Of a DNA stretch of 64,000 bases, positions 4,245-21,197 are shown piece after piece. Location of the stretch: positions 1 to 64,000 of IMG/VR virus record IMGVR_UViG_3300042987_001940; one strand, given 5' to 3'. The first letter of the stretch is position 1; each line of letters starts with the position of its first letter. Below the pieces are notes generated by a model. That model was not told the DNA's origin. It saw only the letters and a list, made by a program, of their open reading frames with translations, and searched no databases. Position numbers and translations under genes: made by a program. Origin of the DNA: a virus.

Positions 4245-4497
4245 ATAAATCAATTCCACTATGTAAAGGGTCTATATTTTTTGTTTTACAGTGAGATTTC
4301 CAATCATCATAATGTTTTTGTTTTATTTGTTTTAGATGATTATCATATCTATCTATCAATTCATATCCCTTTTGTGTATTCGCATGTCCACCACGCTTCA
4401 CATGATTTTGAATTGATTTTTCTGTTTTATGTAATTTATTTAAATGATATTCAAAAGAATCTCTTTCTTCAAGAATAAAAATACCGAATGATTTCAT
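4237..4497 (-). CDS. Small hypothetical protein
   Basis: An 86-residue, charged, His/Lys-rich protein (HVKRGGHANTQKGYELI) with no membrane segment and no recognised family. It overlaps Rz by ATGA at its start and the lipoprotein gene at its end, so it is translated as part of the lysis operon. Confidence 0.55.
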   Translation of the reverse strand: MKSFGIFILEERDSFEYHLNKLHKTEKSIQNHVKRGGHANTQKGYELIDRYDNHLKQIKQKHYDDWKSHCKTKNIDPLHSGIDLYA

Positions 4498-6104: not shown

Positions 6105-7607
6105 TCAGTTATTCTCTGTTTTTACATAAGTTTGTGTAATAACAGGGTCAGCTATAAACTTTTCTTTACCTTTTTTAGCAGCTTTTTTAACTATATCTGC
6201 TTTTTTTGAAACAGCTTCAGTTTTCATTTGATTTCTAATCGCAGTTTTAGCCAAATGTTTTGCAACAGACATACCAGCAGGTCTTTTACCAACAGTTACG
6301 CCAAGATTACTTTTTGGAGGGTCAGGTGTAAATGGTGGTGTTGGATTTGCTGGCATTTTTGGTTGCACAGGTTTTGATGCTTTGATTAATTTCATTGTAT
6401 CAAGTTTACGCATAAGAATACCACGTGCAATCGATGCTGTTTTTGATTCCTGCATGTTTTTATTATGATAATTCTTTAAACGATTCATCATATCTTTTCC
6501 ATGCTTCTTCTCAACTTCTGAATAAGCCTTTTGTTTTGCTTCATCAGAATGTCTTATAGTTTTAGCATGTTTACCATAAGTCTTTGCATATAATGAACGA
6601 ACACTAATGGGAACTTCCATTGGGTTCTCATCAACTTCTTCTTTTACTTGTTCATATCCACGTTTTTCATATTCAGGAACAGCAGTATGAACAACAGATA
6701 ATTCTTTACCAGAAGTTTTGTGTCGAACTGTCACGACTTTTTCGGTTTTTGATGTTGTTTTTGGTAAATCAGATTCAGTAATGTTTTCTTCTTGAATCTT
6801 TTTTGATGCTTTTAAAATACCTAAAACAAGCGGTGCTTTTAACTGTTTATGACGTGGAACTGAAATATGTTCACTTGATTTAGGATGAGTATATACATCA
6901 TGTCCACCGGCAGTTCTTGATAAGTTCCAACCAGTTTTTTTAAGATGATGATGAATATCGCGTGTATTCATATTTGCGCCTGCCATTTCAGTAATTTCAA
7001 CTTCTTCACTAATCGTTTTCCAACCACCACCTTTAGATTTATACCATTTTGCTGCCCATCCATTTGCATAAGCTGATGGATAAACATCAAACTTAGACCT
7101 AGCGAGTGATTTTGCTCTTGCCCAAAGTTTTGGGTTTGTTGGAGCATTTTTTTCATCTAATTGTTCCATACTTTCTCCTAATTTACCTTTTCCATAATTA
7201 GAGACATTTATAGGTTTGCCTTTTCTTTCTGGATTAGGGTCATGTTTTCTTTTTGCTTTAACTGCCGATGCTCTTTCGTCTTTCGTAAGACTTGCTCGTT
7301 TAGCATTTGACATACATTTAGGTTTAGCTTCTCCTGGTTCTCTTGCACAAGGACCAATTGCCTCACCTTTACTATTGATTCTTTTCCAACCACCTTCGGG
7401 ATGATTAGGATTGAACCAATTACGCAAATCTTCTTTTATGTTTTCCTCTTGATGAATATCGTATTTCATTTTACTTTTTGATTTAACATTTTGAGAGAAT
7501 TCGTCCCTAGGTGACACGCCTGGGTTATTCTGAACCATTCGTGGAAGAACAGGTTTGAACCTGCCCTTCTCACGATGTTGTTCCAGAATTTTTCTTATCC
7601 TGCTCAT
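6105..7607 (-). CDS. Modular cargo-type protein with HicA-like domain and protease-type linkers
   Basis: A 500-residue, very basic mosaic of small modules. Residues about 63-137 hold a GGWKRI/GPCARE/PKCMSNAKRASL module. Residues 155-196 hold a NPKLWARAKSLAR...FDVYPSAYANGWAAKWY module. Residues 213-271 resemble a HicA mRNA-interferase domain (LKKTGW, GGHDVY with His236, VPRH). A lysine-rich C-terminus follows. Segments resembling L/I-x-E cleavage motifs separate the modules: MEQLDE (147-152), EEVEITE (201-207) and EENITE (273-278). It overlaps the upstream 664-residue gene by ATGA. I infer a capsid-internal polyprotein processed by gp21; an ordinary structural role is also possible. Confidence 0.7.
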   Translation of the reverse strand: MSRIRKILEQHREKGRFKPVLPRMVQNNPGVSPRDEFSQNVKSKSKMKYDIHQEENIKEDLRNWFNPNHPEGGWKRINSKGEAIGPCAREPGEAKPKCMSNAKRASLTKDERASAVKAKRKHDPNPERKGKPINVSNYGKGKLGESMEQLDEKNAPTNPKLWARAKSLARSKFDVYPSAYANGWAAKWYKSKGGGWKTISEEVEITEMAGANMNTRDIHHHLKKTGWNLSRTAGGHDVYTHPKSSEHISVPRHKQLKAPLVLGILKASKKIQEENITESDLPKTTSKTEKVVTVRHKTSGKELSVVHTAVPEYEKRGYEQVKEEVDENPMEVPISVRSLYAKTYGKHAKTIRHSDEAKQKAYSEVEKKHGKDMMNRLKNYHNKNMQESKTASIARGILMRKLDTMKLIKASKPVQPKMPANPTPPFTPDPPKSNLGVTVGKRPAGMSVAKHLAKTAIRNQMKTEAVSKKADIVKKAAKKGKEKFIADPVITQTYVKTENN

Positions 7608-9598
7608 TTGCTACCTTTAGCAACTTTGGTAGCGGTCGCATACATCACTTCTTTTGCACGTTTGCCATAACGTTCACGGAAACCAGAAAGTTTCTTCTTC
7701 ATGCTTTTAACAACTTCCTCTTTCTTTTTGGTTTCTGCTGATGTTAAATGACGTTCATCAATTTGTTCAACTTCTTCATTTTTCGTTTTTTGTATAGGTG
7801 CCTTAGTGAATACTTTTTCTTCATCTTTCAATTTTTTGTAATGTGCTTGGGCTAATTTTTTAGTTTTTTCATAATTTTCATCATCACCATCAGGTCCGCC
7901 GCGGGCGCCGCCGGAATGATGTAACTGTTTAGCTGCTTCTGGTCCATATTCATCATGAACATGTTTTTCTATGCGATGCACTGTATCGGCAGCAGCGCCG
8001 TGTGGACCACCACCATATTTAGGTTCTTCTGCATCACGGACATAAGAGTGAAATGCATGTCCATGATGTAAATCTTTTAGACTATAATTATACATACTTA
8101 GATGTCTGGGCATAGAATAATCAGTTTCTTTATGATAATTACTTGCACGACGGCCAATGATTCTGCCTTCAAAAATCTGTTCAACTTCTTCTGGTAATTT
8201 TCCTTTTGGACCAGTGATTCTTGAACTAACGTTCTTCATTGCTTTTTGTGTTGATTTGGGGATTTTTCCTGATTTTGTTACTTGTGTTGATAAGTGTTTA
8301 CGCAATCCACCAGAAAGTTTATCATTTCCACGATTACGACTTTTTTCTGTACCAAATGTAGCGGAATTAGCAGCTTTTTCAGCATGTGCAGCAGCTTCAG
8401 GTCCATGATGTTTTAAAATGTGAGCATATAGTTTATCTGCTTTTTTTGTATGTTTTTCTTCATCATCTTCATTACCATAATCACCTGCTTCATAAGCGGC
8501 ATTTGAATGTTGAGCATATGCTTTTATTTTAGTTTGTAATGATACTTCATTTAAAATTTCTTCATCAATCTGTTCAACCTCTTCTTTTATATTATGTTTC
8601 TTTTTCAATTTTTCCATTTCTTTTTCATGATAATCTGCATCATCTGGTCCAGCATATTCGCCTGCAATCACATGATGGTCAGAATGTGATACCATATCAT
8701 CAGCCACTTTATTTCCATAATGTTTGCGAACATGATTTTCAATTGCGGTAGCTGCGTGATGATTTAAATTTGGATTAGCACCACCATGACCATAACCTTG
8801 GTCTGCCATATATGAATGCTCTGCATGAGAATTCCATAAATGTGAAAGTGACATTTTATCCATTTTACCTTCAAGAATCTGTTCAACTTCTTCATTCTTG
8901 ACAGCTTGAACTGCTGGTTTTGCAACTTCTGCTTTTTTACCTTTGCCTTCTGATTTTTCTTGTGCATCTTTTACTTCGGCAGTATATTCGTCATTTGTTG
9001 GTTCTTCAACAACAAGCATTTCTGAAACAAAATCAAGACCTCTTTGGTCCAAATTTTGCATCATTTCAGTGAACGATTCTTTATACAATTTGGTATTGAA
9101 ACGACGTTTGAAAGTTCCTTTTGGACGTCCACGACCGCGTTTTACTGGTTCTGCTGGTTTTTCATCAGCATCGTCTTTTCCTTCTGGGTCCTCATAATCT
9201 GCACCATAAGATTTACCTTTAACAGTGCGTTTTGGCAAATCTGCTAGTTTGACTTCATCAAGATTTTCAACTTCTTCACCCTGTAATCCCGCGAGTTTCT
9301 TTTCTACAGCATGTTTTCCTGCTGTGCGTTTTGCTAGAGTTTTTTTATCACCTCTAATCATTGCTATTTGACCAGCTTCCATATTCTTAGCTTGATAATT
9401 TTTTAATGTATTACTACTCAATTCATTAATTTGTTCAGCTTCTTCTTTTTTCATAGAACGAAGTTTTTTGAAATCTGCACCGGTCAATTTACCTTTTGGT
9501 TCTGCAACATCAATTTTGTGTTGCATACCTTTTAGTTCTTCGCTCATAATTTTAGCTACTGCATCTGCTACACTTTTTGTTTTTTTATCTGAAAACAT
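7604..9598 (-). CDS. Polyprotein-like protein with six EExEQIxE linkers and His-rich repeats
   Basis: 664 residues. Six near-identical linkers occur at residues 52-59, 108-115, 236-243, 339-346, 470-477 and 608-615 (core EEVEQI[L/D/F]E, with variants EEAEQINE and EEVENLDE). Between them are unrelated modules: a SSNTLKNYQAKN helical module, an AT-hook-like KRGRGRPKG at 153-161, and three mutually similar His-rich modules (about 250-337, 354-415, 507-594) sharing A-x-HS-x2-A and HxxA patterns. The linkers fit the L/I-x-E specificity of T4-type prohead protease. It has no membrane segment. Role inferred: capsid-packaged, DNA-associated cargo cleaved during head maturation. Confidence 0.7.
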   Translation of the reverse strand: MFSDKKTKSVADAVAKIMSEELKGMQHKIDVAEPKGKLTGADFKKLRSMKKEEAEQINELSSNTLKNYQAKNMEAGQIAMIRGDKKTLAKRTAGKHAVEKKLAGLQGEEVENLDEVKLADLPKRTVKGKSYGADYEDPEGKDDADEKPAEPVKRGRGRPKGTFKRRFNTKLYKESFTEMMQNLDQRGLDFVSEMLVVEEPTNDEYTAEVKDAQEKSEGKGKKAEVAKPAVQAVKNEEVEQILEGKMDKMSLSHLWNSHAEHSYMADQGYGHGGANPNLNHHAATAIENHVRKHYGNKVADDMVSHSDHHVIAGEYAGPDDADYHEKEMEKLKKKHNIKEEVEQIDEEILNEVSLQTKIKAYAQHSNAAYEAGDYGNEDDEEKHTKKADKLYAHILKHHGPEAAAHAEKAANSATFGTEKSRNRGNDKLSGGLRKHLSTQVTKSGKIPKSTQKAMKNVSSRITGPKGKLPEEVEQIFEGRIIGRRASNYHKETDYSMPRHLSMYNYSLKDLHHGHAFHSYVRDAEEPKYGGGPHGAAADTVHRIEKHVHDEYGPEAAKQLHHSGGARGGPDGDDENYEKTKKLAQAHYKKLKDEEKVFTKAPIQKTKNEEVEQIDERHLTSAETKKKEEVVKSMKKKLSGFRERYGKRAKEVMYATATKVAKGSK

Positions 9599-9623: not shown

Positions 9624-10934
9624 TTATCTTGTTATTTCTTCCCAATCCATTGATGCATAAATGTCTGAACCGTTTAAGGTAGCAGAGGCACATAATGTTA
9701 GTTCATATGGAGTGTTGGTAAAACTGTTTCTTTCTAATTGAAATTTGAATAATGCTTCTTTAAGAATATCAACTGGCGTCGCACTAACTGTTGCACCAGT
9801 AAAACCTGATGCTAATATTCGTCCGCCAGTGACTGAACCACCATCAATTTTATATTCAACAGCAGAGTTAGTGCCAGCATCTGTCCAAGTCCCACCTCCA
9901 GAAGTGTTAGCACTTGACCTTACTTGCCAATTATAAACTGAGTTATTTGTAATACCTAAAATTGATAGTGCAGTAAGAATTACGATTGCTTCTAAACGAT
10001 TTGATTTTAATCTCAATGAAATAACTGGATAATATGTTCCAGACGTTGGTAAATTAACAGGGGACCCAATTGTTGTCTGAATAGCTTGCTGAGTACCATA
10101 TAGTTCATAACCACCCTCAGAAATGACTGTTGAACATATTTGTTTTAATGTTGAATTGCTTGTTGTAATTCCTGTATTCTTTATTTCATATCTTAATGGC
10201 AAAGAAGCCGTTGTCATGTAAGGAGCTATATTTTTATTATCGTTGTGGAATATGTGTGCAGGTATCATTTTACCATCAATTACAAAACCACAACGAACAT
10301 CACCAACACCCAACCATTCAACATCCGTCCAAAAAATATTTGATTTACTCACATCAATACCGGAAGCGTGTTCTGTGCCACCACTTTGTGTTGAGTAACC
10401 TGTTCCATCAAATTTATCTACATTCCAATCCGTTTGTGCAGTTCTTGTTTCGGTAATTGTTCCGGATGTGTTACTTCTCAATACAAAATAATTTGTTGTG
10501 CCATCATTTTCAAAAAAAATGCCATTATCACGACCAAAATAACCTACTCTTTGACGAACATTTTGTTTAGGTTGATTCATAACAAAGGTGCTCATTATCA
10601 ACAATGATTTACCTGGTTGATAAGACATAACTTTTGTCGTTTCTCGGGCAACTTCAGCATTTGCGGTTGTACCAACAGTCATCTCAATTAAACTTTGGTT
10701 TTCAACAAAAGTATATGAACTATTTCCTGCTGTATTTGATGTTGCCCATAACCCATTATCAGAAAAACGATGTGTGCTTTCAAACAAAGTAAAAGGATTT
10801 ACAATACGCAAACGACCAAACGCATCTGTCATAGTACCAGATGGTGTAAGACGGTCAGAAAACATATTCACTTCATACCGAGTAAATACTTGTCCTGAAT
10901 CTATCTTTTTTAAGTCAGTTCTAAATTGTGCCAC
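9624..10934 (-). CDS. Virion structural protein
   Basis: A 436-residue protein of a type recurrent in marine T4-like phages. Recognisable pieces are SGTMTDAFGRLRIVNPFTLFES, YQPGKSLL and RQRVGYFGRDNGIFFE, plus GGYELYGTQQ. It is beta-rich by composition. The start is GTG at 10934, directly after the preceding stop; the next ATG is 23 codons in, after residues that look conserved, so GTG is preferred. It lies between two modular cargo-type genes. I expect a surface or fibre-associated structural protein; the exact role is unknown. Confidence 0.75.
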   Translation of the reverse strand: MAQFRTDLKKIDSGQVFTRYEVNMFSDRLTPSGTMTDAFGRLRIVNPFTLFESTHRFSDNGLWATSNTAGNSSYTFVENQSLIEMTVGTTANAEVARETTKVMSYQPGKSLLIMSTFVMNQPKQNVRQRVGYFGRDNGIFFENDGTTNYFVLRSNTSGTITETRTAQTDWNVDKFDGTGYSTQSGGTEHASGIDVSKSNIFWTDVEWLGVGDVRCGFVIDGKMIPAHIFHNDNKNIAPYMTTASLPLRYEIKNTGITTSNSTLKQICSTVISEGGYELYGTQQAIQTTIGSPVNLPTSGTYYPVISLRLKSNRLEAIVILTALSILGITNNSVYNWQVRSSANTSGGGTWTDAGTNSAVEYKIDGGSVTGGRILASGFTGATVSATPVDILKEALFKFQLERNSFTNTPYELTLCASATLNGSDIYASMDWEEITR

Positions 10935-11966
10935 TTAGCAATTCCATTTTCTCAATGATTTGTTAATACGGCTATTTGGGTCATTTGCAGTCTTTGCAGA
11001 AGTCAATCTACGCTTCATGCCAGACATCCTAGCGCAAAATGACTTACGGCGTTTTGCAGCCTTAGAACCTTTTTTCAATTTAGAAGGTTTTGTTGTAACT
11101 GCCATTGATAGTTTTGAACCAGGATGTTCACGACGATAAGATTCAATACCTTTGCGATTCAAACCACCTTCTGGATTTTTACCTTCTGAGCGTTGCCATG
11201 CAGCACTTTCTTTTATTTCACCACTTGGAGTTTCATGTGAGCCAACTTTGACTTTTTTATATACTTTTTTGCCTGTATTTGGACTGATATAGTAATCACC
11301 GTTTTTGTCGGTACCAATACTTTTTACTTTGTATTTCGATGCACTAGAACCTTCTGCTATATGGTCAACATCTTCTCTTAGTTTCCCGTTATTATATGTT
11401 GCAACAGTTCTATCCGAATCATACCAATCACTAACTGTATGTTGGCCAGTTTTAGGGTCTTTTTCAATATGCTGGACAACACCTTCTCTTTTGCTTATTT
11501 CTTTTGCTTTAGAATGAGCAGCAGCAAGTCCTTTATCGGACGATTCATACATTCTTTCTGATGTTTCTTTTGCTTTTCTTTTTACTGCCATATATGCACG
11601 ACGTTGTGCATCTATATGTTTCTGTCCATCTTTTTTCGATGCTACTTTATATACTTCAGAATATTTTTTAACAGAAAGTTCATCAATCTGTTCTACTTCT
11701 TCTTTTATATGACCATATTTCTTTTTATACCAATCGGGCATACCATGAGTTTTTCTAAAATATAAAACAGTTGATGCATCATTCACTTGGTCCATATATT
11801 TGTTTTCAGCTTTTTCATTGTGTCCACGCATCGCTTTTGCAGCTTCTCCTGCATCTTTCATGACATAACGCAATTCATTATCTGTTTTTTTATGATAATC
11901 GTGACCTTCTAATGCATGTTGTTGTGATGGTCGACCTTCAACAATAAATGATTTGAATGTTTTCAT
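10935..11966 (-). CDS. Capsid-targeted modular protein with T4 internal-protein-like leader
   Basis: 343 residues. The first ten, MKTFKSFIVE, closely match the capsid-targeting leader of T4 internal protein III (M-K-T-aromatic-x-x-F-I-x-E), followed by Gly as expected for gp21 cleavage. A second candidate site (HALEG) is at 17-21. Linkers EEVEQIDE (89-96) and EDVDHIAEG (198-206) divide the chain. The C-terminal module (about 256-343) has AWQRSEGKNPEGGLN, RRKSFCARMSGM and ends LRKWNC, a basic domain I recall from many phage proteins. I infer packaging inside the capsid and processing on maturation. Confidence 0.75.
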   Translation of the reverse strand: MKTFKSFIVEGRPSQQHALEGHDYHKKTDNELRYVMKDAGEAAKAMRGHNEKAENKYMDQVNDASTVLYFRKTHGMPDWYKKKYGHIKEEVEQIDELSVKKYSEVYKVASKKDGQKHIDAQRRAYMAVKRKAKETSERMYESSDKGLAAAHSKAKEISKREGVVQHIEKDPKTGQHTVSDWYDSDRTVATYNNGKLREDVDHIAEGSSASKYKVKSIGTDKNGDYYISPNTGKKVYKKVKVGSHETPSGEIKESAAWQRSEGKNPEGGLNRKGIESYRREHPGSKLSMAVTTKPSKLKKGSKAAKRRKSFCARMSGMKRRLTSAKTANDPNSRINKSLRKWNC

Positions 11967-11971
11967 TTTTA

Positions 11972-14386
11972 TTATCCTACAAACTTTTTAGATTTAAATG
12001 TTTTTAGATTAATGCCTTTTTGCTTCAATGTTTCTTGATTGAAATCGCTCATTGACGAAGCATCTTCTCCACCAGCACCAATTGTTTCAGCAACTTGTGA
12101 TGCTTTACCAAATTTCTTTTTGTCTATTTTTTCACCTGTGTCACGCGCAGGACTTTCTCCAGCACCTGCCATTGAAAGTCCTGGCTCAATGCCTTGGTCT
12201 ATAGACTCAATCACTGTTTTCTGTTTTTCCCTGATTTCTTTGAGCGTGATTTTTTTACTGGTTCTGTTACTGGTAAATTGCTCTCCAATGGCTGAACTGG
12301 CAATTCCGTCGCTTCTGGTATCTGTTGTGTTGGAATTGGTTCTTGAACTTCCTGTTTTACTTCCACTGGTTTTGTTTCCTTGATTACTGGTTGTGTTAGA
12401 AATTCCCATAGCTTCTTGAACATTTTGCTTCTCCTTTATTTTAACAATATAACCTTTTCCACTTGGATGTGGAACAATTGTGCCATTTTTCTGATGCGCT
12501 TCTTTTGCAGCAGATGTTCGAAGATGGAAAATTCTTGGTTTACCACTCATATCTTTAATATAATTTTCATTTTCTTCTTTCATCAGACCTTTACCTAAAG
12601 TAAGAACTGACATTGCATCCACATCAGATAATGAATATGATTCATCAACATCCGATTCTGTATTCTTTAATAATTTTAATGCACTTTTAACTTCTTCGGG
12701 TGTATCACCAGAAATCGTTATTGAAATTTGTTCTGATAAAAATTCTTCAAATTCTTCATTAACTTTTTTGATATCTTTTGGTAACTTACTTTGTTTTTGT
12801 ATAGTTTTCAATTTTTTCTTTTGTTTTGGTGTTAATGGTGTTGATGTATGTGAATAACTTGAACCTTGTGTTGGAACTTTTGGTTGTTGTGGTTTTTCTT
12901 TTGGTATCTCGACAAGTTTATCTTGTATTGCACGATGCGTAACTTGCCCTTTTTGTCCATAACGACCATGACCATAAAATTTGAGACCTTTTTCAGATGC
13001 TTCTTTTGCTGCTTGTGAATCTGGGTGGGGCGTTCTTTCGGCACCACTTCTCTTTACTGGTTCTGTATCTTTTTTCTGTAATTCACCAGCAATCCATTTT
13101 TGTGCTTTTTCATTGTCTGTTGGGTTCGCAACAAAATCTTTGACATGTTTATGTAAATCAAGAAGTTCTTGTTCCTTTGCTGCACGAATTGTAGGATGTG
13201 CAGTCATTGCATCATGTGAATTGTCATATTCATGATAATCGTTGCCGAACATTTTCGCAAATTCAGAACGATTATTTTGTGCGCCTTGCCATTTTTCTTT
13301 CCGAATCTTTTCAGGTATTGTTCTACCACCACGTTTACCACGTGCGATATTTCTTTGCTTTGATACTTCATCGCTTGAATGAACCATTACCATCTTAGAA
13401 CCATAACCAATTTTCTCAAGTTCACTTTTAATTTTTTTTACTTTATCTAAATCTTCACCAGTGCCATTGATAATCAGTCCATTACGACCTTCAATAGCTA
13501 ATCTTTGACGAAGTTCTGTCATATTCTTTGCACGACCACGAATGATATTTCTTTGTTCTTCTTCCTTCTTGGGCATTTTTTTATTCAGATTATGTTTGTC
13601 CATCAGATATTCAAGTGCTTTGTCTGAATTGATTTCAGTCAAGCCATGACCATCCAATGTTTTATTCATGACATAATCTTTGCCTGAACCTGGTCCACCT
13701 GCAAGAAATACTGCTTTGAAGATACCTTGGTCATGAACACCTTCCATCAACATTTCAAATGAATCATTAATATCTTCTGATTCTTTTACTTGCATACCTT
13801 TACGGACATCATGGAATAGTTCTCTTGCATGTTCATCAGAAACGTGTTTTGGAACACCTTTTTTGAATTCTTTATAATTGTTTTCGGATGCATGTTTACG
13901 CATTTTGGATGCTGACATACCTTCTGTTCCTTCGGCATCAGGGTCACGTTCACCTGATGAATGGACTGTTATTTTTTTGAAATTATAATGACCATGTCCA
14001 CTTTTAACACCATTATATTGTTGTAAAAGTTTATGATATTCTTCAGTTCTATCTGAACCACCAACTACATGAAGATGGGTAATACCTTGTTTGTGTAGTC
14101 TTGCAGCATGGTGAAGGATTGTAGGTTCTTCTTTGCTGGCAGTAGTAATATTTGCACCAGGAAAGAATCTTTTAGCGTGTTTCTGCTTTTGTTCTGCTGT
14201 TAGAGGATTTTTCTTTTTATCTTGAGTGTGGGAAACTACGATATGATGGGATGCGTTATGCTCTTTTGCAACATCTTTGACTTTATTGACTAGCTTTTCA
14301 TGACCAGTTGTGGGTGGATTCATTCGTCCAAAAGCTAGGACACCGTGTTTTTCTTCTTTTTCTTGCAAAAAGTCTATAAAATTCAT
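11972..14386 (-). CDS. Nucleotidyltransferase / P-loop kinase fusion with capsid-targeting-type leader
   Basis: 804 residues. The leader MNFIDFLQE is followed by a nucleotidyltransferase domain (about 14-170): GRMNPPTTGH is the (H/T)xGH motif and GMSASKMRKH replaces ISSTxxR. A candidate cleavage site MLMEG (212-216) precedes a kinase-like domain: Walker A GGPGSGKD (230-237), later IINGTGED and RGGRTIPEK. Further boundaries look like FEEFLSE (546-552) and NVQEA (655-659). The C-terminus (SMAGAGESPARD) resembles a conserved phage module. The domain order is as in NadR, but the substrate is not evident; NAD metabolism or nucleic-acid end modification are options. A late-type promoter precedes it. 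Confidence 0.75.
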   Translation of the reverse strand: MNFIDFLQEKEEKHGVLAFGRMNPPTTGHEKLVNKVKDVAKEHNASHHIVVSHTQDKKKNPLTAEQKQKHAKRFFPGANITTASKEEPTILHHAARLHKQGITHLHVVGGSDRTEEYHKLLQQYNGVKSGHGHYNFKKITVHSSGERDPDAEGTEGMSASKMRKHASENNYKEFKKGVPKHVSDEHARELFHDVRKGMQVKESEDINDSFEMLMEGVHDQGIFKAVFLAGGPGSGKDYVMNKTLDGHGLTEINSDKALEYLMDKHNLNKKMPKKEEEQRNIIRGRAKNMTELRQRLAIEGRNGLIINGTGEDLDKVKKIKSELEKIGYGSKMVMVHSSDEVSKQRNIARGKRGGRTIPEKIRKEKWQGAQNNRSEFAKMFGNDYHEYDNSHDAMTAHPTIRAAKEQELLDLHKHVKDFVANPTDNEKAQKWIAGELQKKDTEPVKRSGAERTPHPDSQAAKEASEKGLKFYGHGRYGQKGQVTHRAIQDKLVEIPKEKPQQPKVPTQGSSYSHTSTPLTPKQKKKLKTIQKQSKLPKDIKKVNEEFEEFLSEQISITISGDTPEEVKSALKLLKNTESDVDESYSLSDVDAMSVLTLGKGLMKEENENYIKDMSGKPRIFHLRTSAAKEAHQKNGTIVPHPSGKGYIVKIKEKQNVQEAMGISNTTSNQGNKTSGSKTGSSRTNSNTTDTRSDGIASSAIGEQFTSNRTSKKITLKEIREKQKTVIESIDQGIEPGLSMAGAGESPARDTGEKIDKKKFGKASQVAETIGAGGEDASSMSDFNQETLKQKGINLKTFKSKKFVG
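12211..12423 (-). CDS. Nested overlapping ORF, Pro/Glu/Lys-rich, with strong ribosome binding site
   Basis: A 70-residue ORF in another frame inside the 804-residue gene. It begins MFKKLWEFLTQP, continues with a Pro/Glu/Val/Gln-rich stretch, and ends in a basic tail (KKSRSKKSGKNRKQ). The ATG is preceded by AAAGGAG at seven bases, a better signal than most genes here. In the main frame this segment encodes a Ser/Thr/Asn-rich linker, which suggests a region tolerant of double coding. Function unknown. It could still be a fortuitous frame, but the start signal argues for translation. Confidence 0.45.
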   Translation of the reverse strand: MFKKLWEFLTQPVIKETKPVEVKQEVQEPIPTQQIPEATELPVQPLESNLPVTEPVKKSRSKKSGKNRKQ

Positions 14387-14415
14387 CTTTTTCCGCCTCT
14401 ATAGCAGTTAATGAT

Positions 14416-14423
14416 GTATTTAG
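14416..14423 (-). promoter_or_regulatory. Candidate late promoter (CTAAATAC)
   Basis: A TAAATA-core site 30 bases upstream of the nucleotidyltransferase-kinase gene, in the short gap after the methyltransferase stop. It matches the other late-type sites in the window. Confidence 0.4.
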
Positions 14424-14436
14424 TATTTTTTATTCT

Positions 14437-15051
14437 TTATTCAGCTACTATAAAAGCATTTCCATGAGGATGATTTGTTGTCCAGTTTTCTTTTAGATGT
14501 CCAAATTGATAGTCGAAATATTTGATTTTAAAACCAGCTTGAACAATTGTAGTTAACCACCATTCTTCTGGTTCTCTTATGATATGTGTTACATCCATTT
14601 CATATTCACGAATTCTATATCTTGTTCCATCACCCAAAGGAACTGCTATGAAAATATTTTTACAACGCCTTCTAAATGAAGATAGAGTATCAGCTATATT
14701 TTCTTTTGGTATATGTTCTAAAACATCTTTTGCTATAATCAAATCCCATCCACCTTTTATATCTTCTGGTGTATTAATTACCGAAAGATAACCTTGGACT
14801 TTGGGATGACAATTATTGACAGCATATTCGGAAATGTCAACGCCATGTGCTTCTTTACCTAAAAGTCGCATAGCATAAACCATGAATCCTTTAGCGCATC
14901 CATAATCCAAAACAGTATCAAATTTTATATTATTAATAATAGATGATGCTTCACGAATCGTTCTTTCAGGCATCCAACGATAATTTTCATATGCGCTGAC
15001 ACGATTTCTTACACCATCTTCAAAATATTTTTCATCAAATATATTATTCAT
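14437..15051 (-). CDS. Class I SAM-dependent methyltransferase
   Basis: 204 residues with a Rossmann methyltransferase core. Motif I is VLDYGCAKG (about 50-58), GVDIS is the acidic loop, and DLIIAKDVLEHI is the motif IV region. It is the last gene of a sugar/methyltransferase island and overlaps the radical SAM gene by TAATG. The substrate cannot be deduced; small-molecule or glycan methylation is typical for this type and context. Confidence 0.85.
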   Translation of the reverse strand: MNNIFDEKYFEDGVRNRVSAYENYRWMPERTIREASSIINNIKFDTVLDYGCAKGFMVYAMRLLGKEAHGVDISEYAVNNCHPKVQGYLSVINTPEDIKGGWDLIIAKDVLEHIPKENIADTLSSFRRRCKNIFIAVPLGDGTRYRIREYEMDVTHIIREPEEWWLTTIVQAGFKIKYFDYQFGHLKENWTTNHPHGNAFIVAE

Positions 15052-16118
15052 TATGCAAACTCATTGTGTTTTGTTTCAGTTAAAACATCATCAATTAATT
15101 CATTTTGATATGCATATTTACAAAAACTACAATCATGTGTTCTGCGTGTTACATTAGGACCACCAACTTGCGAATTATAGAAATCTAATATTCCATCAAT
15201 ATCACACAATTTAAATTGGTCATTTACATGATAATTATTTTCTGGTGCTAATTCTGCTGAAGGACAAACATACACGTTACCGTCTGTAAACACGCAAGGT
15301 TTTACCATGTGCATATAACAATTTGTATTACGACGAACGCCTTTGAAATTAAAATCTGACAAAAAAGCATATTTTAATGGACCATTTTCCGATTCATGTT
15401 TTGCAATTAATCTTTTAATACTCTCAATGTCTTGCTGAACTATCTTTGTATCTTTAATTGCATTGAATGCTATACGGCAAGGTATTTTCTTTTCTTCTAC
15501 CCACGAAAGCATTTTAAGAAAATTTTCTTCTTTGTATTCATTTGATGCTAATTTTTTAGCTTTTGGGTCATTCCATTTACCAGTAATATTTGGATTTGTT
15601 GAAGTTTCTGTTGCACCATCCCAAACATATGCTGCTGAAATTTCAATATCTAATCCATCAAACACATCAAGATGATATTCATATGGTTTCTTTTCGTCCC
15701 AAGAATACATACCAAGACGAACCCATGATATCATATGCCAATTTTTAACTTTTCTGAGTTTTGAACCGTTAGTGCAGATACCTATTTTAAAACCTTTGTT
15801 ATGAGCATATTCAATTACTTCATCAAGTTTTGGATGGAGCGTTGGTTCACCACCACCAGTAAACTCCATACCTTTTACACCCAATTCAGCAAATGAATCT
15901 ATGGCTTTTTTCATCTGTTCGACAGTCAACATTTCTTTCATGCTACGATTAGCAAAGCAGCAAAATGAACATGTGAGATTACATGGATTACATGGTGACA
16001 TATGAAACATAACAGGTTTAGGTCTGCCACCATCTTGAATTATTTTTAATCTGTCAAGATGTTTTAATAATTTGACATGATTGCTTGTGTAACTTCTTCC
16101 TTGAACTTTTTCTTCCAT
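15051..16118 (-). CDS. Radical SAM protein with C-terminal SPASM-like cysteines
   Basis: 355 residues. The radical SAM cluster motif is C46-NLT-C50-SF-C53, followed by GMEFTGGGEPTLHP, the SAM-binding GGE segment. A Cys-rich C-terminus (CYMH, PCVF, VCPSAELA, CDIDG, HDCSFCKYA) suggests one or two extra Fe-S clusters, as in SPASM/twitch proteins. Such enzymes modify peptides, sugars or other metabolites. It is translationally coupled to a glycosyltransferase-like gene and a methyltransferase, so glycan modification is a reasonable guess, not shown. Confidence 0.85.
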   Translation of the reverse strand: MEEKVQGRSYTSNHVKLLKHLDRLKIIQDGGRPKPVMFHMSPCNPCNLTCSFCCFANRSMKEMLTVEQMKKAIDSFAELGVKGMEFTGGGEPTLHPKLDEVIEYAHNKGFKIGICTNGSKLRKVKNWHMISWVRLGMYSWDEKKPYEYHLDVFDGLDIEISAAYVWDGATETSTNPNITGKWNDPKAKKLASNEYKEENFLKMLSWVEEKKIPCRIAFNAIKDTKIVQQDIESIKRLIAKHESENGPLKYAFLSDFNFKGVRRNTNCYMHMVKPCVFTDGNVYVCPSAELAPENNYHVNDQFKLCDIDGILDFYNSQVGGPNVTRRTHDCSFCKYAYQNELIDDVLTETKHNEFA

Positions 16119-16849
16119 TATATACCCCTAAATGTCAATTCATATTCTGTTTGATTTTGATTGTATGGTCCAACATCTTCATTATAATATTCTTTCATGA
16201 ATTTTGGATATACATCATTTAATATATGATACATTTCTTCAAATGCATCACTCTTATCATAATAGCTTGGTTTTCCTGGATGATACATTGAAACTTCATG
16301 TATCACTCCACACTTCTCTTTTGTGATTGCTGACAAAATTAAGTCGAATCCCCATCCACTCTTTACATCATGCATTTTAAAAAATTCTAAAATTATAGGC
16401 ATTAATGATGAATGTATAAATTGACCCATACCTTCATTAAAATTTGTTACTGCATATTTTAATTCTGGTTTTTGATGAAGTATTCTATGTGTCGATTCTG
16501 AACCAGAAATTGTTGATAGTTGAAACAGTTTTAAATTCTTTTCTGTCGCAATTTCTAATGCTCTATTTACGCTTTGTATATCTGTGACCAAATCGTCATC
16601 CCAAAACCCAATATATGCATACTTAGTATAATCAATTAGTTCCAAAAAACATTTAACAAGATTCCATTTATATCCAGATTTTTCTATAATATAATCATAT
16701 GTGTTTGAATCTGGAACATAATCATTATATCGACACAAAATGGTTTCATAATTTCGACCATCTTTTTTCATTCTCCAGTGATTATCTTTATCATATGCAT
16801 CATGATAATTTAAAGGAATTCCAACAGGACAAAAAATTACATTACTCAT
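16118..16849 (-). CDS. Glycosyltransferase-like protein (GT-A, DUF707-like)
   Basis: About 243 residues. FWDDDL (around residue 90) is a DxD-type metal/nucleotide-sugar motif. GWGFDLI downstream resembles the GWGxD motif of DUF707-type putative glycosyltransferases. The ATG at 16849 overlaps the previous stop as ATGA; the longer frame begins with TTG. It is coupled to a methyltransferase and a radical SAM gene. Predicted cytoplasmic; acceptor unknown. Confidence 0.7.
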   Translation of the reverse strand: MSNVIFCPVGIPLNYHDAYDKDNHWRMKKDGRNYETILCRYNDYVPDSNTYDYIIEKSGYKWNLVKCFLELIDYTKYAYIGFWDDDLVTDIQSVNRALEIATEKNLKLFQLSTISGSESTHRILHQKPELKYAVTNFNEGMGQFIHSSLMPIILEFFKMHDVKSGWGFDLILSAITKEKCGVIHEVSMYHPGKPSYYDKSDAFEEMYHILNDVYPKFMKEYYNEDVGPYNQNQTEYELTFRGI

Positions 16850-17487
16850 TTTATTATATACCAAGCATTATTTTCTAAAGGTATGACTTCATTTATTCTT
16901 TTACCGAGAAAATTTCTCAGAGCAATATTTACATCTTTTAATGTAAAGTCATGTCCTGCAAATATACCACCATCTTTTATTAATGGAAAATAATTTTGAA
17001 AGTCTCTGAAAGCGCCATCATAACTATGGTCACCATCAATAAAAATAAAATCTAAAGTTTTTTCTGGATTTTTTTTAGAAAAATCTACACTTGATTCATA
17101 AACAAATTCAACCCTCTCATTAAATTTTTTTAATCTGTTGAATGCATGTTCTCTCATGGCATTTTGTTTAACATCATTCATAATAACACCAGTCCAATCA
17201 GTGTATGTAGGATAATTATCAACACAATATAATTTCGTTAAGTTTTTTATTTCACTTAATAAATACTCACTTGTAACACCCAAACAAACGCCTATCTCAC
17301 AACCAATAATATTTGTCGAAAAATGTTTTTTTAAAACATTGACTAAACCTTTTCCTGAAATATATTCACCCTGTGACAGTTGATAATCAATCCACTCATT
17401 ACCATTCATATTATTTTTTACCTCTACATCATTATATTGTTGTGATGTAAAGGTTTCTTGTTCTGTATTAATAATAATTTTATCCAT
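16846..17487 (-). CDS. Class I SAM-dependent methyltransferase (Methyltransf_24-like)
   Basis: About 213 residues. CEIGVCLGVTS is motif I, LYCVDNY follows, and DFIFIDGDHSYDGAFRDF is the IDGDHSY signature of this subgroup, often linked to cell-surface sugars. GGIFAGHDF completes the core. The ATG at 17487 has AGAGGAA just upstream and overlaps the end of the glycosyltransferase gene; the longer frame starts with TTG. Part of the same late island. Confidence 0.85.
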   Translation of the reverse strand: MDKIIINTEQETFTSQQYNDVEVKNNMNGNEWIDYQLSQGEYISGKGLVNVLKKHFSTNIIGCEIGVCLGVTSEYLLSEIKNLTKLYCVDNYPTYTDWTGVIMNDVKQNAMREHAFNRLKKFNERVEFVYESSVDFSKKNPEKTLDFIFIDGDHSYDGAFRDFQNYFPLIKDGGIFAGHDFTLKDVNIALRNFLGKRINEVIPLENNAWYIIK

Positions 17488-18331
17488 ATTTCCTCTCAAT
17501 TATTTCTTTCCATTCTGTTATTCTATCATATTGGTGGACAATTGCAAATGGTTTTTCAGTAGAAGTGCAGACAGTATCATTTATCATAACTGGACAATTT
17601 TCAACTAATTTATGTTTTACTGTATTTCTAACCTGAGGTCCTGTTGTTCCTAACTGCGCTGCATAACCACTCTCCGACATAGCAAAATTAGTAATATCTT
17701 TATATGGTTTCATATTCAAAAGAATATTCAATGCTGCTTGGTCAGGTCCACCACCACCTTCGATATAATGATTTGTTCCCTGACATAGCATATAGATGTT
17801 CAAAAAGAAATCAATCATTGTATCAAATTTACCAGAAATTGTTCCTGCGTTATAAATTAAATTGTTTTTATTGTGTTCATATAATACTGTTCCATATGCT
17901 TTTTGAAGATTATTTTTACCCCATTCTTCATTTTCATATGTAATAGATTCACAACCGACGTTGATTTGTTTATTACCAATATTATTTTCAAGCCAGTCAA
18001 TTGGATTACTTTGGAACACAACATCTTTAACATCTGTTGTAACGATATATCGATATTCACCTTTAAGCTGTCGTAGAAAATACCATAGATGAAAAAATCT
18101 CTCAACGACGATTGAGAAATTTTCTTTATATTCAAATCTTTTTAGATTTTCGTTTTTGTTAAATGTGAGAACAGAATAGTCTCTTTTGACCAATTCTTCA
18201 ACGGTGTCAAAAGAAACATTATAACACATCATCGCTTTGGTACCTTGGAAACCGGAACGGTCAAGCGAATTTACCCAAGGTTTTATTTTATCAAAATCAT
18301 ATCCTGTAATGCAACCAATCACTATATCCAT
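17480..18331 (-). CDS. Glycosyltransferase-like protein
   Basis: 283 residues. The chain has a GT-A appearance: N-terminal IVIGCITGYDFDKIKPWVNSL, TTDVKDVVFQ as a DxD-type metal site near residue 92, and GGGGPDQAALN in the region where family members contact the acceptor. It is the first gene of the island, 18 bases after a small cargo-type gene, with a TAAATA site nearby. Donor and acceptor are unknown. Confidence 0.7.
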   Translation of the reverse strand: MDIVIGCITGYDFDKIKPWVNSLDRSGFQGTKAMMCYNVSFDTVEELVKRDYSVLTFNKNENLKRFEYKENFSIVVERFFHLWYFLRQLKGEYRYIVTTDVKDVVFQSNPIDWLENNIGNKQINVGCESITYENEEWGKNNLQKAYGTVLYEHNKNNLIYNAGTISGKFDTMIDFFLNIYMLCQGTNHYIEGGGGPDQAALNILLNMKPYKDITNFAMSESGYAAQLGTTGPQVRNTVKHKLVENCPVMINDTVCTSTEKPFAIVHQYDRITEWKEIIERKYG

Positions 18332-18349
18332 AACAACTCCACAAAAAAA

Positions 18350-18357
18350 TTATTTAG
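18350..18357 (-). promoter_or_regulatory. Candidate late promoter (CTAAATAA)
   Basis: A TAAATA-core site overlapping the stop of the 61-residue gene, about 20 bases before the glycosyltransferase start at 18331. Spacing is shorter than at the other sites. Confidence 0.35.
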
Positions 18358-18535
18358 TATGTTCTTTAAACGACTTTATCTTTCTTACTTTTTGACCTGG
18401 TGTATCTCTGGTATATGAATGAACCAATTCATCTGAAGCATCATTACCTGCACCTGATGGTGGAAGAATATCGGGATGAGGAACTTTTTTTTCTTCACTT
18501 ATATTTTTTATAATATGTTCTTTTAATTTTAACAT
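18350..18535 (-). CDS. Small hypothetical protein with leader-like N-terminus
   Basis: 61 residues: MLKLKEHIIKNISE, then a Pro/Gly-rich and charged stretch ending KIKSFKEHTK. The N-terminus loosely resembles the capsid leader with an I-S-E site. It directly follows the HAD phosphatase gene and is probably in the same late operon. No known family. Confidence 0.5.
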   Translation of the reverse strand: MLKLKEHIIKNISEEKKVPHPDILPPSGAGNDASDELVHSYTRDTPGQKVRKIKSFKEHTK

Positions 18536-18536
18536 T

Positions 18537-19187
18537 TTATGCTTTCGTAGTCGTTACTGTTACTTTACCTGTTTTTTCATCATGATGGACGTGATGTGCA
18601 TGAAACTCCACGTTTGGATGTTTTTCTTTTAACTTTTTGAAATGTTCAAGATTTGCATGTGAATCGTCATACAGATGGACTTTTGTGTATCCATGTTTAC
18701 GAATTAATCCATCAATAACTTTATGCTTTGCTTTTGCAGGTGTTTCTTCTCCAGTTTCTCCTGCACGACGAAAATGTATTTTATTGATATCAATTCCATG
18801 TCCACGCATCGCTTTTGTGAAATTCTTTTTGCTATCCATATTAGAACGTGCTGTCAAAATTTCAACGTTCTTATTATTGTGATGAATAGCTTTCATCTTG
18901 CGAACCATTTTGTGTATTGGTTGTGCAGATTTTTTAAATACTTTTGTTGACCTGAAATCACTAAAATCGTATTTGTGACCAGCAGGTAATTTGTGCGTAT
19001 TATATTCGCGGTTTGTCAATGATTGCACTCTTTTACCAGACTTATTGACAACGTGAATTTTTGCTTCATTCTTCTTTTTGTAATGAAATAGAGTATCGTC
19101 CATATCGAAGGCATGGAGCGTTTTAGACTTTGGGTCTTTACGGTCCATATCTTCGATAAGAAAATCTAAAACATTTACTTTTTCCAT
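18537..19187 (-). CDS. HAD-superfamily phosphatase with capsid-leader-like N-terminus
   Basis: 216 residues. HAD motif I is FDMDDTLF (about 27-34), motif II is ILTARS (about 109-114), and motif III/IV is LYDDSHANL (about 172-180). This resembles nucleic-acid 3'-phosphatase or nucleotidase members. The N-terminus MEKVNVLDFLIED carries F-L-I-E like the proposed capsid leaders. The start overlaps the ligase-like second ORF by 13 bases. With a ligase-like protein upstream and a kinase in the same region, an end-healing role is possible; a general phosphatase is the alternative. Confidence 0.75.
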   Translation of the reverse strand: MEKVNVLDFLIEDMDRKDPKSKTLHAFDMDDTLFHYKKKNEAKIHVVNKSGKRVQSLTNREYNTHKLPAGHKYDFSDFRSTKVFKKSAQPIHKMVRKMKAIHHNNKNVEILTARSNMDSKKNFTKAMRGHGIDINKIHFRRAGETGEETPAKAKHKVIDGLIRKHGYTKVHLYDDSHANLEHFKKLKEKHPNVEFHAHHVHHDEKTGKVTVTTTKA

Positions 19188-19924
19188 GCTTTTACTTTCA
19201 GAAGATTAGCACGTGCAAATTCTTTACGATTTACAAGTTTAGTTGGTTTATCTTCATGACTTACGACAAAACCTTCGGGCTTTGATTTTGTATCATCAAT
19301 ATGGTGTTCATAACCACCTTCATGATGTTCAAGATGTTTTACAAGTGTATCTTTTGCTTGCTGAAGATGATGATGCATTGTTAGTAAATGGTCGTAATGT
19401 TCTTTATGTTTCTCAATATGATTGACATGTTCTTCTGATTCAGCTTCTTTTGCTTTTTTACCTTTTTCTGATTTTGCTTTATCAATCAATTTACCATATT
19501 TTTCTTTAACGTGTTTTTTTAGACCTTCAGATGTTGGTGCTTCACCTGTTCTGACAGTATGATTGATATATGTCGTTAGATGTCCACCATCACCTTGATG
19601 TTTTGCTGTAGCAGCATACATCTTATGCCCATATGTATCATGGATATGTTTTGCTGCTGCCATATGTTTTTGAAAATCTTGCTGTGCATGATGTGAATAA
19701 TCTACTTTGCTTGTATCATGTTCAGCAGAATGATGATAAACATCTGGATGCTCTTTGAATGCAGTAGCATGGTCTGTATGTGGTGATGCTTTCATTGTTG
19801 ATAAATCGTCACCATGATATTGTTGATGAACGACAACACCAACTTTTGATTTCTTTATTTTATCTGCTTGTTTGCCATGAGCAGTATAAGTGATTGTATT
19901 TGGAGTGAAAGATACTTTACTCAT
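19175..19924 (-). CDS. C-terminal half of split ligase/nucleotidyltransferase-like protein
   Basis: 249 residues. It begins MSKVSFTPNTITYTAHG, which continues the fold of the upstream 146-residue ORF. I recall homologues where both parts are one polypeptide (possibly the family labelled DUF6267). A His-rich, charged middle is followed by PEGFVV (216-221) and KLVNRKEFARAN (229-240), which resemble motifs IV and V of covalent nucleotidyltransferases. The ATG overlaps the upstream stop in ATGAGTAA, so termination-reinitiation is likely. Either a genuine gene fission or a one-base frameshift. Confidence 0.65.
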   Translation of the reverse strand: MSKVSFTPNTITYTAHGKQADKIKKSKVGVVVHQQYHGDDLSTMKASPHTDHATAFKEHPDVYHHSAEHDTSKVDYSHHAQQDFQKHMAAAKHIHDTYGHKMYAATAKHQGDGGHLTTYINHTVRTGEAPTSEGLKKHVKEKYGKLIDKAKSEKGKKAKEAESEEHVNHIEKHKEHYDHLLTMHHHLQQAKDTLVKHLEHHEGGYEHHIDDTKSKPEGFVVSHEDKPTKLVNRKEFARANLLKVKAWKK

Positions 19925-20357
19925 GTTTTAAATCCTCGTGGGTATACATCATATCTCCCTGATATACACCTTTCTTTGGTGTAACTTTAGGAAAATGTTT
20001 AAGCGCAGCTTTTAGTTTATGTGCTAGTCCCGGAGAATGACCATGATTAGCGTCAATATCTTTATCTGAATAATTTATCTTGGGATTCTTGTTGAAAGCA
20101 GATTTTGATGCGACAAAAAATTTACCAGTTTTTGGATGATGACCAAATACTACAGAAGGTGAACCATCATATTTCATCGTTAGATTACTGTTTTTCTTTT
20201 TTTCAACCATGTGCTGATGTGTTTTCATCAATGCACCATAAGCATGTTCAAATCCCTTATGACCATCAATTAAAGGATGGTCCTCAGCATGTGTGATATG
20301 CTTGAGTTTACCATCATCTTCTTCTGATTCTATTAGAAATGTTTTAAAGTTTATCAT
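19917..20357 (-). CDS. N-terminal half of split ligase/nucleotidyltransferase-like protein
   Basis: 146 residues. The leader MINFKTFLIE followed by Ser resembles the T4 internal-protein capsid-targeting sequence. TMKYDGSPSVVF (60-71) looks like ligase motif I (KxDG, candidate nucleophile Lys62), and GVYQGDMMY (130-138) looks like motif III. The ORF stops just after this point and the following ORF supplies the rest. I infer a nucleic-acid ligase-like or nucleotidyltransferase enzyme, possibly packaged in the head. No structure comparison was possible. Confidence 0.65.
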   Translation of the reverse strand: MINFKTFLIESEEDDGKLKHITHAEDHPLIDGHKGFEHAYGALMKTHQHMVEKKKNSNLTMKYDGSPSVVFGHHPKTGKFFVASKSAFNKNPKINYSDKDIDANHGHSPGLAHKLKAALKHFPKVTPKKGVYQGDMMYTHEDLKHE

Positions 20358-20384: not shown

Positions 20385-21167
20385 TTATATTTCTTTTGCT
20401 TTTCCGCCAATAACTTTTCTAGGCAGTATTAGTATTCTAGCTCCGCTATATGTTTTTCCATCCACTTGATAATTTCTACCCGCTGTATATCTAGCAGCAA
20501 TTATTGCAGTATAATCTCTTTCCATAAATTCCGAAACATCTGGATTGTAACTAGCATGTGTAGTAAAATCCAGAATATGTTTATTTCCGTTTTTTGTGAG
20601 TTTAGCATCACCTTGTCCTATAACATGTATATTATCAATGTTATATTGAGATGTTCCAAATTCCGGACCATAAATAGCCTTACCAATAAGTTTTTTATCT
20701 TTTATGATTCTATAAAATCTTTCTTTCTTTTCAACAATAATTTTTTGTATTTTTGAAATTGCTCTAAGAAACTCTATTACAGTTTTATCTTTTGATATTG
20801 AACCTGGTTTTCTTCCATCCGCTTTGTCTGTTATACCACTATACTGTTGAAAAGCACCAGCATCTTTTCCCATCTTATGTGAAATAAAACATACATCTAC
20901 AAATTTTTTTAACTTGCCATCATAAGTTACTAATGCAATATCTGCTTTTGGAGTACCTTCAACTTTGTTTGCACCATAAATTTCTTTGAATGTGTGTTTT
21001 CCTGTCACTATGGTTATAGGTGAACCAATCTTAGAAATGTATCCATTTATCTGCTGAAGAACAGCCAATTCACCGCGTTCTGTTGGAGTTGGTAAATTTA
21101 ACACATATGAATTATCTAAACTTTTAAATTTATAAAGAAGACCATGCACTTTGGCTGAACCTGCCAT
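20385..21167 (-). CDS. Phage hypothetical protein, possible nuclease-like fold
   Basis: 260 residues. GTPKADIALVTYDGKL followed by VDVCFISHKMG and FQQYSG has the spacing of a PD-(D/E)xK-type core (Asp, then a strand ending in Lys). It resembles proteins I recall near helicase or structural genes of marine phages. I do not see enough to assert nuclease activity. A TATAAATA site and AGGAG precede the ATG, so expression should be late, unlike its gp41 neighbour. Confidence 0.55.
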   Translation of the reverse strand: MAGSAKVHGLLYKFKSLDNSYVLNLPTPTERGELAVLQQINGYISKIGSPITIVTGKHTFKEIYGANKVEGTPKADIALVTYDGKLKKFVDVCFISHKMGKDAGAFQQYSGITDKADGRKPGSISKDKTVIEFLRAISKIQKIIVEKKERFYRIIKDKKLIGKAIYGPEFGTSQYNIDNIHVIGQGDAKLTKNGNKHILDFTTHASYNPDVSEFMERDYTAIIAARYTAGRNYQVDGKTYSGARILILPRKVIGGKAKEI

Positions 21168-21189: not shown

Positions 21190-21197
21190 TATTTATA
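21190..21197 (-). promoter_or_regulatory. Late promoter, exact TATAAATA
   Basis: A perfect match to the T4 late consensus, 22 bases upstream of the 260-residue gene. It marks the switch from the replication operon to the late cargo region. Confidence 0.65.

Follow-up and report, generated by a model that had tools for sequence, protein, structure and literature searches.

A group of genes in a T4-like aquatic virus probably encodes a set of virion-packaged enzymes that would act on nucleic-acid ends at the start of infection. The genes lie on the minus strand between positions 11,972 and 20,357 of the window, which is the first 64,000 nucleotides (nt) of the 133,148-base virus contig IMGVR_UViG_3300042987_001940. 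They code for a ligase-like protein of the DUF6267 family that is encoded in two parts, a HAD phosphatase, and a protein of 804 amino acids (aa) that joins a nucleotidyltransferase to a P-loop kinase. This cassette has domains with conserved catalytic motifs, leaders that are conserved among relatives, a late promoter, and two ligase halves under purifying selection. Packaging of its proteins in the virion is very likely, and nucleic-acid end repair as their main role is a serious possibility that falls a little short of even confidence. The original prediction for this DNA had proposed a packaged end-repair kit of kinase, phosphatase and ligase-like protein. The principle of tagging such proteins is known from T4; what is new relative to the literature compared is the cargo, together with a ligase family not recognised before and the conservation of its split.

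Probable Packaging Leaders

The T4 internal protein IPIII is brought into the head by its ten N-terminal residues, with residues 4 and 7 serving targeting and residues 8 and 10 processing, and the gp21 protease cleaves after L/I-x-E (PMC9026906). The T4 internal-protein criterion was an N-terminal leader of 10-19 residues with these targeting and processing residues. In the T4 record, IPII and IPIII (MKTYQEFIAE/A; a slash marks the putative cut) and gp24 (MAKINELLRE/S) fit the same fixed pattern that was used on the record studied here, and PseT, RnlA and RnlB do not match it. The corresponding features of the window are as follows.

20328-20357, minus strand: leader MINFKTFLIE/S of the DUF6267 N-half, with the spacing of a T4 capsid-targeting sequence (aromatic residues at 4 and 7, L at 8, E at 10)
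19152-19187, minus strand: leader MEKVNVLDFLIE/D of the HAD phosphatase
14360-14386, minus strand: leader MNFIDFLQE/K of the 804-aa protein
12731-12751, minus strand: internal leader-like site FEEFLSE/Q in the tail of the 804-aa protein, a possible gp21 processing site
10935-11966, minus strand: 343-aa protein of the same tag set, with leader MKTFKSFIVE/G at 11937-11966 and a C-terminal DUF6321
49760-50410, minus strand: gp21-type prohead protease (Peptidase_S77, 2.5e-34), which would process the leaders

The exact T4 spacing is found in two of the four leader-bearing proteins; the leader of the 804-aa protein is one residue shorter and that of the HAD phosphatase two residues longer. The motif occurs in 5 of 18 genes between 4.0 and 20.4 kb (shuffle mean 0.11). 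Of the 135 genes outside this region only 2 have it, with a shuffle mean of 1.08, and one of the two (50764-51198) belongs to the head-gene cluster. The gp23 homologue of the record carries a conforming site as well (MLQE/A).

The leaders recur across ~80 relatives. DUF6267 proteins begin with the strict pattern in 77 of 79 cases (1.1 expected by shuffling), and nucleotidyltransferases in 44 of 75, or in 70 of 75 under a looser pattern for which 3.0 were expected. HAD phosphatases carry leaders in 6 of 12 relatives (0.1 expected) and in 53 of 79 members of the wider HAD family. Neighbouring open reading frames (ORFs) of the relatives have them in 60 of 652 cases versus 4.8 expected, and in one locus (L158) four unrelated proteins in a row each begin with a leader. 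None of nine C-halves of split DUF6267 relatives has one. The claim that all the proteins have leader-like N-termini thus holds, above chance, for the N-half, the phosphatase and the 804-aa protein, and fails for the ligase C-half. The comparison of sequences supports the leaders as packaging tags of the T4 capsid-targeting type placed on unrelated families, as had been proposed. Because most proteins of the cassette share this T4 head-loading tag, they would probably be injected with the viral DNA and be active from the start of infection.

The closest precedent is provided by the T4 internal proteins IPI-IPIII and Alt. The likeness lies in leader length and pattern (aromatic residues at 4 and 7, I/L at 8, E at 10), in the gp21 homologue, in the late promoter, and in the use of one tag on unrelated protein bodies. 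The difference lies in the cargo, which here consists of nucleotide and nucleic-acid enzymes, several of them long multidomain chains with further internal leader-like sites.

Probable Late Expression

The record is T4-like by its gp43-type polymerase, UvsX and gp41-type helicase (judged by size, order and sequence), which stand in the same order in S-PM2 and Syn1. Homologues of gp20, gp21, gp22 and gp23 were all found in it with Pfam. The minus-strand order of transcription is a restriction endonuclease (REase)-like gene, the DUF6267 N-half, the C-half, the HAD gene, a sugar-modification block, the gene of the 804-aa protein and that of the 343-aa protein. The promoter and the first gene are listed below.

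21190-21197, minus strand: TATAAATA, -10 element of a T4-type late promoter, 30 nt ahead of the gene that opens the operon
20385-21167, minus strand: type II REase-like protein of 260 aa, first gene of the late operon, with no leader (PADLOC REase_II 1.5e-13; PHROG 13937 3.1e-34)

The window has three exact copies of TATAAATA, where shuffling predicts 7.9. Each of them is on the coding strand and about 25-30 nt before a gene, namely the REase-like gene, gp22 and the gene after gp23. The whole 133-kb record has five (21190, 47222, 49748, 119357 and 125488), again confined to the coding strand, and related loci totalling 808 kb have 87 on the coding strand versus 5 on the other. Dozens of these loci have one copy 52-56 nt before DUF6267. 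The cassette adjoins the replication genes gp41, uvsX and gp43; despite this position it is assigned to the late region on account of the exact TATAAATA that precedes the operon here and DUF6267 in relatives. Late expression of the cassette, which the original prediction had assumed, is therefore supported by its promoter sequence. As a side observation, with only five copies in 133 kb, always on the coding strand, TATAAATA may be useful as a clean marker of late promoters in this group of viruses.

A Split Ligase-like Protein

The DUF6267 protein is encoded by two overlapping genes.

19917-20357, minus strand: DUF6267 N-half, 146 aa, with the leader, motif I KYDG (Lys62) and motif III QGD (PF19782 1.3e-46, 160 bits, profile positions 2-124; dN/dS 0.08-0.14 versus split relatives)
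19175-19924, minus strand: DUF6267 C-half, 249 aa, with motif IV EGFVV and motif V KLVNR (PF19782 2.1e-48, 166 bits, profile positions 132-373; dN/dS 0.07-0.13)
19917-19924, minus strand: stop/start overlap ATGAGTAA, which joins the halves between motifs III and IV

Both halves score above the Pfam cut-off of 27 bits and together make up one DUF6267 (PF19782), a family that occurs in 469 phage records and is named in none of the papers searched. The ligase-like motifs KYDG, QGDMM, EGFVV and KLVNR are present as had been noted; they are spread over two ORFs rather than residing in a single protein. Among 13 diverse DUF6267 proteins, K-x-D-G, Q-G-D, E-G-x-V and K-x-V-x-R (motifs I, III, IV and V) are invariant, with K61, D63, G64, D134, E360, G361 and K372 (numbered as in A2) as the invariant residues.

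L015 has the nearest intact DUF6267, and in its AlphaFold model (pLDDT 84) the motifs fall on strands in ligase order, while helices are inserted between motifs III and IV. A Foldseek search of this model against the PDB returned three archaeal DNA ligases at the top (E 0.008-0.017; probabilities 0.96, 0.96 and 0.85). The lower matches were mostly unrelated and weak, with Rnl, RNA editing ligase, T4 DNA ligase and capping enzyme recurring. Among viral models, the first other annotated family past DUF6267 and cytidyltransferase-type relatives was RNA ligase (E 0.013, probability 0.99). A structural search had been proposed for the enzymes of the cassette, and it brought ligase matches for DUF6267 and, for the kinase, TMt values of up to 0.65 to polynucleotide kinases; a ligase profile match did not emerge. 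On the basis of these models, a ligase-type fold is likely for DUF6267, and its prediction as a divergent covalent nucleotidyltransferase of the ligase type is fairly supported. ATP-dependent DNA ligases and RNA ligases share with it the motif order KxDG - QGD - EGhV - KhV[ND]R, the matching strands and the best fold matches. DUF6267 differs from them in having no profile match, a large helical insertion between motifs III and IV and, in this virus, two chains.

The same overlap splits DUF6267 in L013, L014, L017, L018 and L020, and other junctions split it in L019 and L044. The halves in L021 are separate genes with a 222-aa ORF bearing its own leader between them. This ORF (L021:537-1202) has a PD...ExK-like pattern, and a homologue follows DUF6267 in L032. 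Across the split relatives dN/dS is about 0.06-0.14 in both halves, indicating purifying selection. An assembly error as the cause of the split is ruled out by its recurrence in at least seven other contigs, the differing junctions, the intervening ORF of L021 and the purifying selection. A programmed frameshift is unlikely on the same evidence, and the junction is a stop/start overlap. Since the split recurs and both halves have low dN/dS, two DUF6267 polypeptides are probably made and kept. With the leader on the N-half only, the C-half would have to ride along into the head; a conserved split with an untagged C-half is unexpected.

The Nucleotidyltransferase-Kinase and the Phosphatase

The other two enzymes of the cassette have the following coordinates.

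11972-14386, minus strand: 804-aa protein with a nucleotidyltransferase, a P-loop kinase and a variable tail
13760-14362, minus strand: HIGH-type nucleotidyltransferase domain, residues 9-209 (GRMNPPTTGH, MSASKMR; PHROG 3041, cytidyltransferase, 5.3e-67; Foldseek NadD, NadR and ATP sulfurylase)
13067-13741, minus strand: P-loop kinase domain, residues ~216-440 (GGPGSGKD, EINSD; Zeta_toxin 1.2e-14, AAA_33 4.5e-7)
18537-19187, minus strand: HAD phosphatase, 216 aa (PHROG 415, 7.5e-10)

The P-loop kinase proposed for the 804-aa protein was recovered with these profiles; the N-terminal nucleotidyltransferase domain had been overlooked. In the predicted structure of the nucleotidyltransferase-kinase (pLDDT 83), ATP sulfurylase and NadR match across both domains in Foldseek (NadR 2.7e-6), and NadD matches the first. 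The kinase domain matches a bacterial polynucleotide kinase with a TMt of 0.58-0.65, about equal to its matches with adenylate kinases, and aligns with T4 PseT in HHalign (probability 80). In the clade of the window, the NSD motif of the kinase aligns with the NRD of the T4 kinase, which holds the catalytic Asp. The catalytic residues of the nucleotidyltransferase are invariant across diverse sequences. In several loci, including L079:10679-12349 and L094:11260-13029, a second, degenerate nucleotidyltransferase paralogue (MKNYRQLIKELPSK...GSFNPP) with a late promoter of its own follows the cassette.

The HAD phosphatase was likewise borne out, and its catalytic residues are invariant among the aligned members. 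PHROG 415, which is named 'polynucleotide kinase', is matched by all ten of the aligned HAD members (best 2.5e-12), and a Swiss-army-knife RNA-repair HAD model (HAD_SAK_1) is matched weakly (0.002) by four. Phage HADs of the polynucleotide kinase and Swiss-army-knife types act on RNA ends (PMC7824862). The HHalign match of the HAD with T4 PseT is weak, and its profile had no matches among PDB chains. A phosphatase with RNA-repair-type affinities is supported by these sequence comparisons.

The proposed equivalence to T4 Pnkp does not hold. The 804-aa protein and the HAD are not a Pnkp because kinase and phosphatase are on separate chains and the alignment of the HAD with PseT is weak; no HAD-kinase fusion was found among the relatives inspected. 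T4, with Pnkp (PseT) and RNA ligase 1, resembles this virus in combining a kinase, a HAD phosphatase and a ligase-type protein in one phage. The differences are the unfused kinase and phosphatase, the DUF6267 ligase family and the additional nucleotidyltransferase found here, and the cassette proteins are late and tagged whereas the T4 proteins have no leader.

The resemblance of the nucleotidyltransferase-kinase to NadR makes packaged synthesis of nicotinamide adenine dinucleotide (NAD+) the main rival explanation, though an unlikely one. The 804-aa protein would restore NAD+ on entry, against NAD-depleting defences or for an NAD-dependent DUF6267, and the HAD would act on nucleotides. Phage NadR has been described as a HIGH nucleotidyltransferase with a P-loop kinase (PMC9503650), the same domain order as here, and the Foldseek matches to NadR and NadD are joined by weak matches to the nadR model TIGR01526 (E 0.001-0.03). 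That score is 13.4 bits, far below the curated cut-off of 341, and the sequence matches of the kinase are to Zeta_toxin, AAA_33 and adenylate kinase rather than to nicotinamide-riboside kinase. The 804-aa protein further differs from NadR in its leader, its long tail and its ligase-like and phosphatase gene partners. Neither NAPRTase nor NadV was found in the 133-kb record, and NAD+ synthesis alone leaves the ligase-like protein and the phosphatase unexplained. The data on the nucleotidyltransferase-kinase itself are compatible with end repair and with NAD+ synthesis alike and do not decide between them.

Loss of the active-site Asp of the kinase in most relatives bears on a further proposal, which is that the proteins are packaged mainly as internal head proteins for core filling or DNA condensation and that their enzyme domains have partly decayed. 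The cassette sits among head genes, the phrog_1645 virion structural protein being encoded at 9624-10934, and the protein tails are long, basic and variable. Such decay is hard to reconcile with the invariant catalytic residues of the HAD, nucleotidyltransferase and DUF6267 across diverse sequences and with the dN/dS of about 0.1 in the ligase halves, and this explanation is judged improbable.

Gene Association and the Missing Ligase

In nearly all related loci the nucleotidyltransferase is either fused to DUF6267 or encoded next to it. Of the first 80 DUF6267 loci, about a dozen also have the HAD gene; of the 80 loci found with the HAD itself, 34 have it together with DUF6267, in several arrangements. 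Among HAD contigs with no nearby DUF6267, L110 (= G008) and L116 (= G006) carry DUF6267 elsewhere and L170 (= G009) does not. In L110 and L116 the HAD gene stands directly amid virion genes, two genes ahead of an ORF judged by eye to be terminase-like. In the window all components are located in the late region as had been stated; a glycosyltransferase/methyltransferase/radical-SAM gene block (14437-18331, minus strand) parts the HAD gene from the gene of the 804-aa protein.

This block, and the differing presence and position of the HAD between loci, could suggest that the genes are unrelated auxiliary neighbours that do not cooperate. There is only a slim chance of this, as the adjacency is repeated in several arrangements, DUF6267-nucleotidyltransferase fusions exist, and contiguous runs of DUF6267, HAD and nucleotidyltransferase (in some with the kinase) are present in L081, L122-L124, L144 and L158.

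Homologues of the gene 30 ligase were not found in cyanomyoviruses (PMC2984593). An ATP-dependent DNA-ligase profile had no match in 12 of 14 DUF6267-bearing records tested, an RNA_ligase profile had none in any of the 14, and neither profile matched the record of the window. T4 has gp30 and no DUF6267. The absence of gene 30 from cyanomyoviruses and the 12 records with no DNA-ligase match make DUF6267 a candidate for the missing cyanophage ligase. It has to be considered, then, whether DUF6267 is simply an intracellular replication and repair ligase and the cassette a repair cluster rather than virion cargo, as its location beside gp41, uvsX and gp43 and the leaderless DUF6267 of several cyanophages would allow. 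This is very unlikely, as dozens of relatives have a T4-type late promoter immediately ahead of DUF6267 and the leader is near-universal in aquatic relatives, where the promoters favour a role in the virion. In DLP_6 and G002, DUF6267 coexists with a DNA ligase, which together with the late promoters also weakens a plain replacement of gp30 by DUF6267.

Related Proteins in Cyanophage Virions

Relatives of the nucleotidyltransferase have been detected in virions. The T4-GC190 nucleotidyltransferase was detected in purified virions of S-SM1 (PMC3037559), a cytidylyltransferase in virions of S-CREM2 (PMC10665884), and NMNAT-like proteins in cyanophage virions (PMC9602691; PMC10665884), the last of which would also suit packaged NAD+ synthesis. 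In S-SM1, T4-GC190 adjoins DUF6267 (T4-GC71) and begins with a textbook leader (MKKFSAFLNE/A). It is an orthologous nucleotidyltransferase beside DUF6267 and with a leader; it differs in being a separate protein with no kinase domain, and the cited virion papers do not describe its leader or its ligase-like partner. A serine/threonine kinase has been reported in S-CRM01 virions (PMC10665884), and the same-cluster kinase of S-CRM01, annotated PKN8, has the N-terminus MISFDQFLSE/K. The two may be one and the same protein.

Proposed Role of the Cassette

The best explanation as a whole, a virion-packaged enzyme cassette acting on nucleic-acid ends, can be set out as a series of steps. The genes would be transcribed late from the T4-type promoter. 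Leaders of about 9-12 residues would serve as capsid-targeting sequences through which the HAD phosphatase, the nucleotidyltransferase-kinase and DUF6267 attach to the core of the prohead. The phage gp21 protease would cut after L/I-x-E and leave the enzymes free in the head, from where they may be injected with the DNA into the host. DUF6267 would be produced as two chains that have to pair with each other. After entry into the new host, the predicted phosphatase, kinase and ligase would most likely mend or prepare nucleic-acid ends at once.

Several observations weigh against this explanation. The DUF6267 proteins of the cyanophages Syn1, S-PM2 and S-SM1 have no leader, nor does the C-half of this virus. 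The virion detections concern orthologues and no protein of this phage, and the authors of the proteomic studies warn of possible contamination of purified virions by such proteins (PMC10665884, PMC9602691). The E-values of the DUF6267 ligase-fold matches are modest and the whole-chain TM is low, the latter attributable to the large helical insertion. No sequence-profile link was found from DUF6267 to T4 Rnl1, Rnl2, gp30, Pfam ligases or PDB chains. The kinase of most relatives has no Asp at the position of the NSD motif, and the HAD is near only a minority of DUF6267 loci and occurs elsewhere with no DUF6267 nearby. Owing to the missing ligase profile, the loss of the kinase Asp, the minority association of the HAD and the NadR match, end repair is one of two live functions. 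No tRNA genes, which would give a context for tRNA repair, were found in the window.

A more specific version of the packaged cassette can be offered tentatively and is more doubtful than probable. In this version a split ligase of a new family, with a tagged N-chain and a C-chain riding along, would enter the host with the genome and join the phosphatase and the nucleotidyltransferase-kinase in repairing broken DNA or tRNA before phage expression, and the leaderless cyanophage relative would be the missing ligase of those phages.

If the packaged cassette is real, the T4 internal-protein system, which in T4 comprises Alt and a few small proteins, would be widened to an injected set of nucleotide and nucleic-acid enzymes in a large group of aquatic phages. 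DUF6267 would receive its first function and become a candidate for the ligase that cyanomyoviruses are reported to lack. The combination of leader and late promoter would give a sequence rule for predicting injected proteins of uncultivated phages.

Other Observations

The gene content of the 14437-18331 block varies among relatives (L016, L018, L021). Further genes on the minus strand of the window are of interest in their own right. A 500-aa protein in the head-gene neighbourhood (6105-7607) contains an internal HicA toxin domain (Pfam 6.2e-8), which may represent a toxin-like domain that is injected. The adjacent 664-aa protein (7604-9598) contains four EEVEQIxE repeats about 100-140 residues apart, which resemble repeated gp21 cleavage sites of a polyprotein. 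The 144-aa basic protein encoded at 50764-51198 (MNFLKLITE...) adjoins gp21 and is probably a core protein like T4 gp67/gp68. An 86-aa ORF at 4237-4497 begins with the perfect leader MKSFGIFILE.

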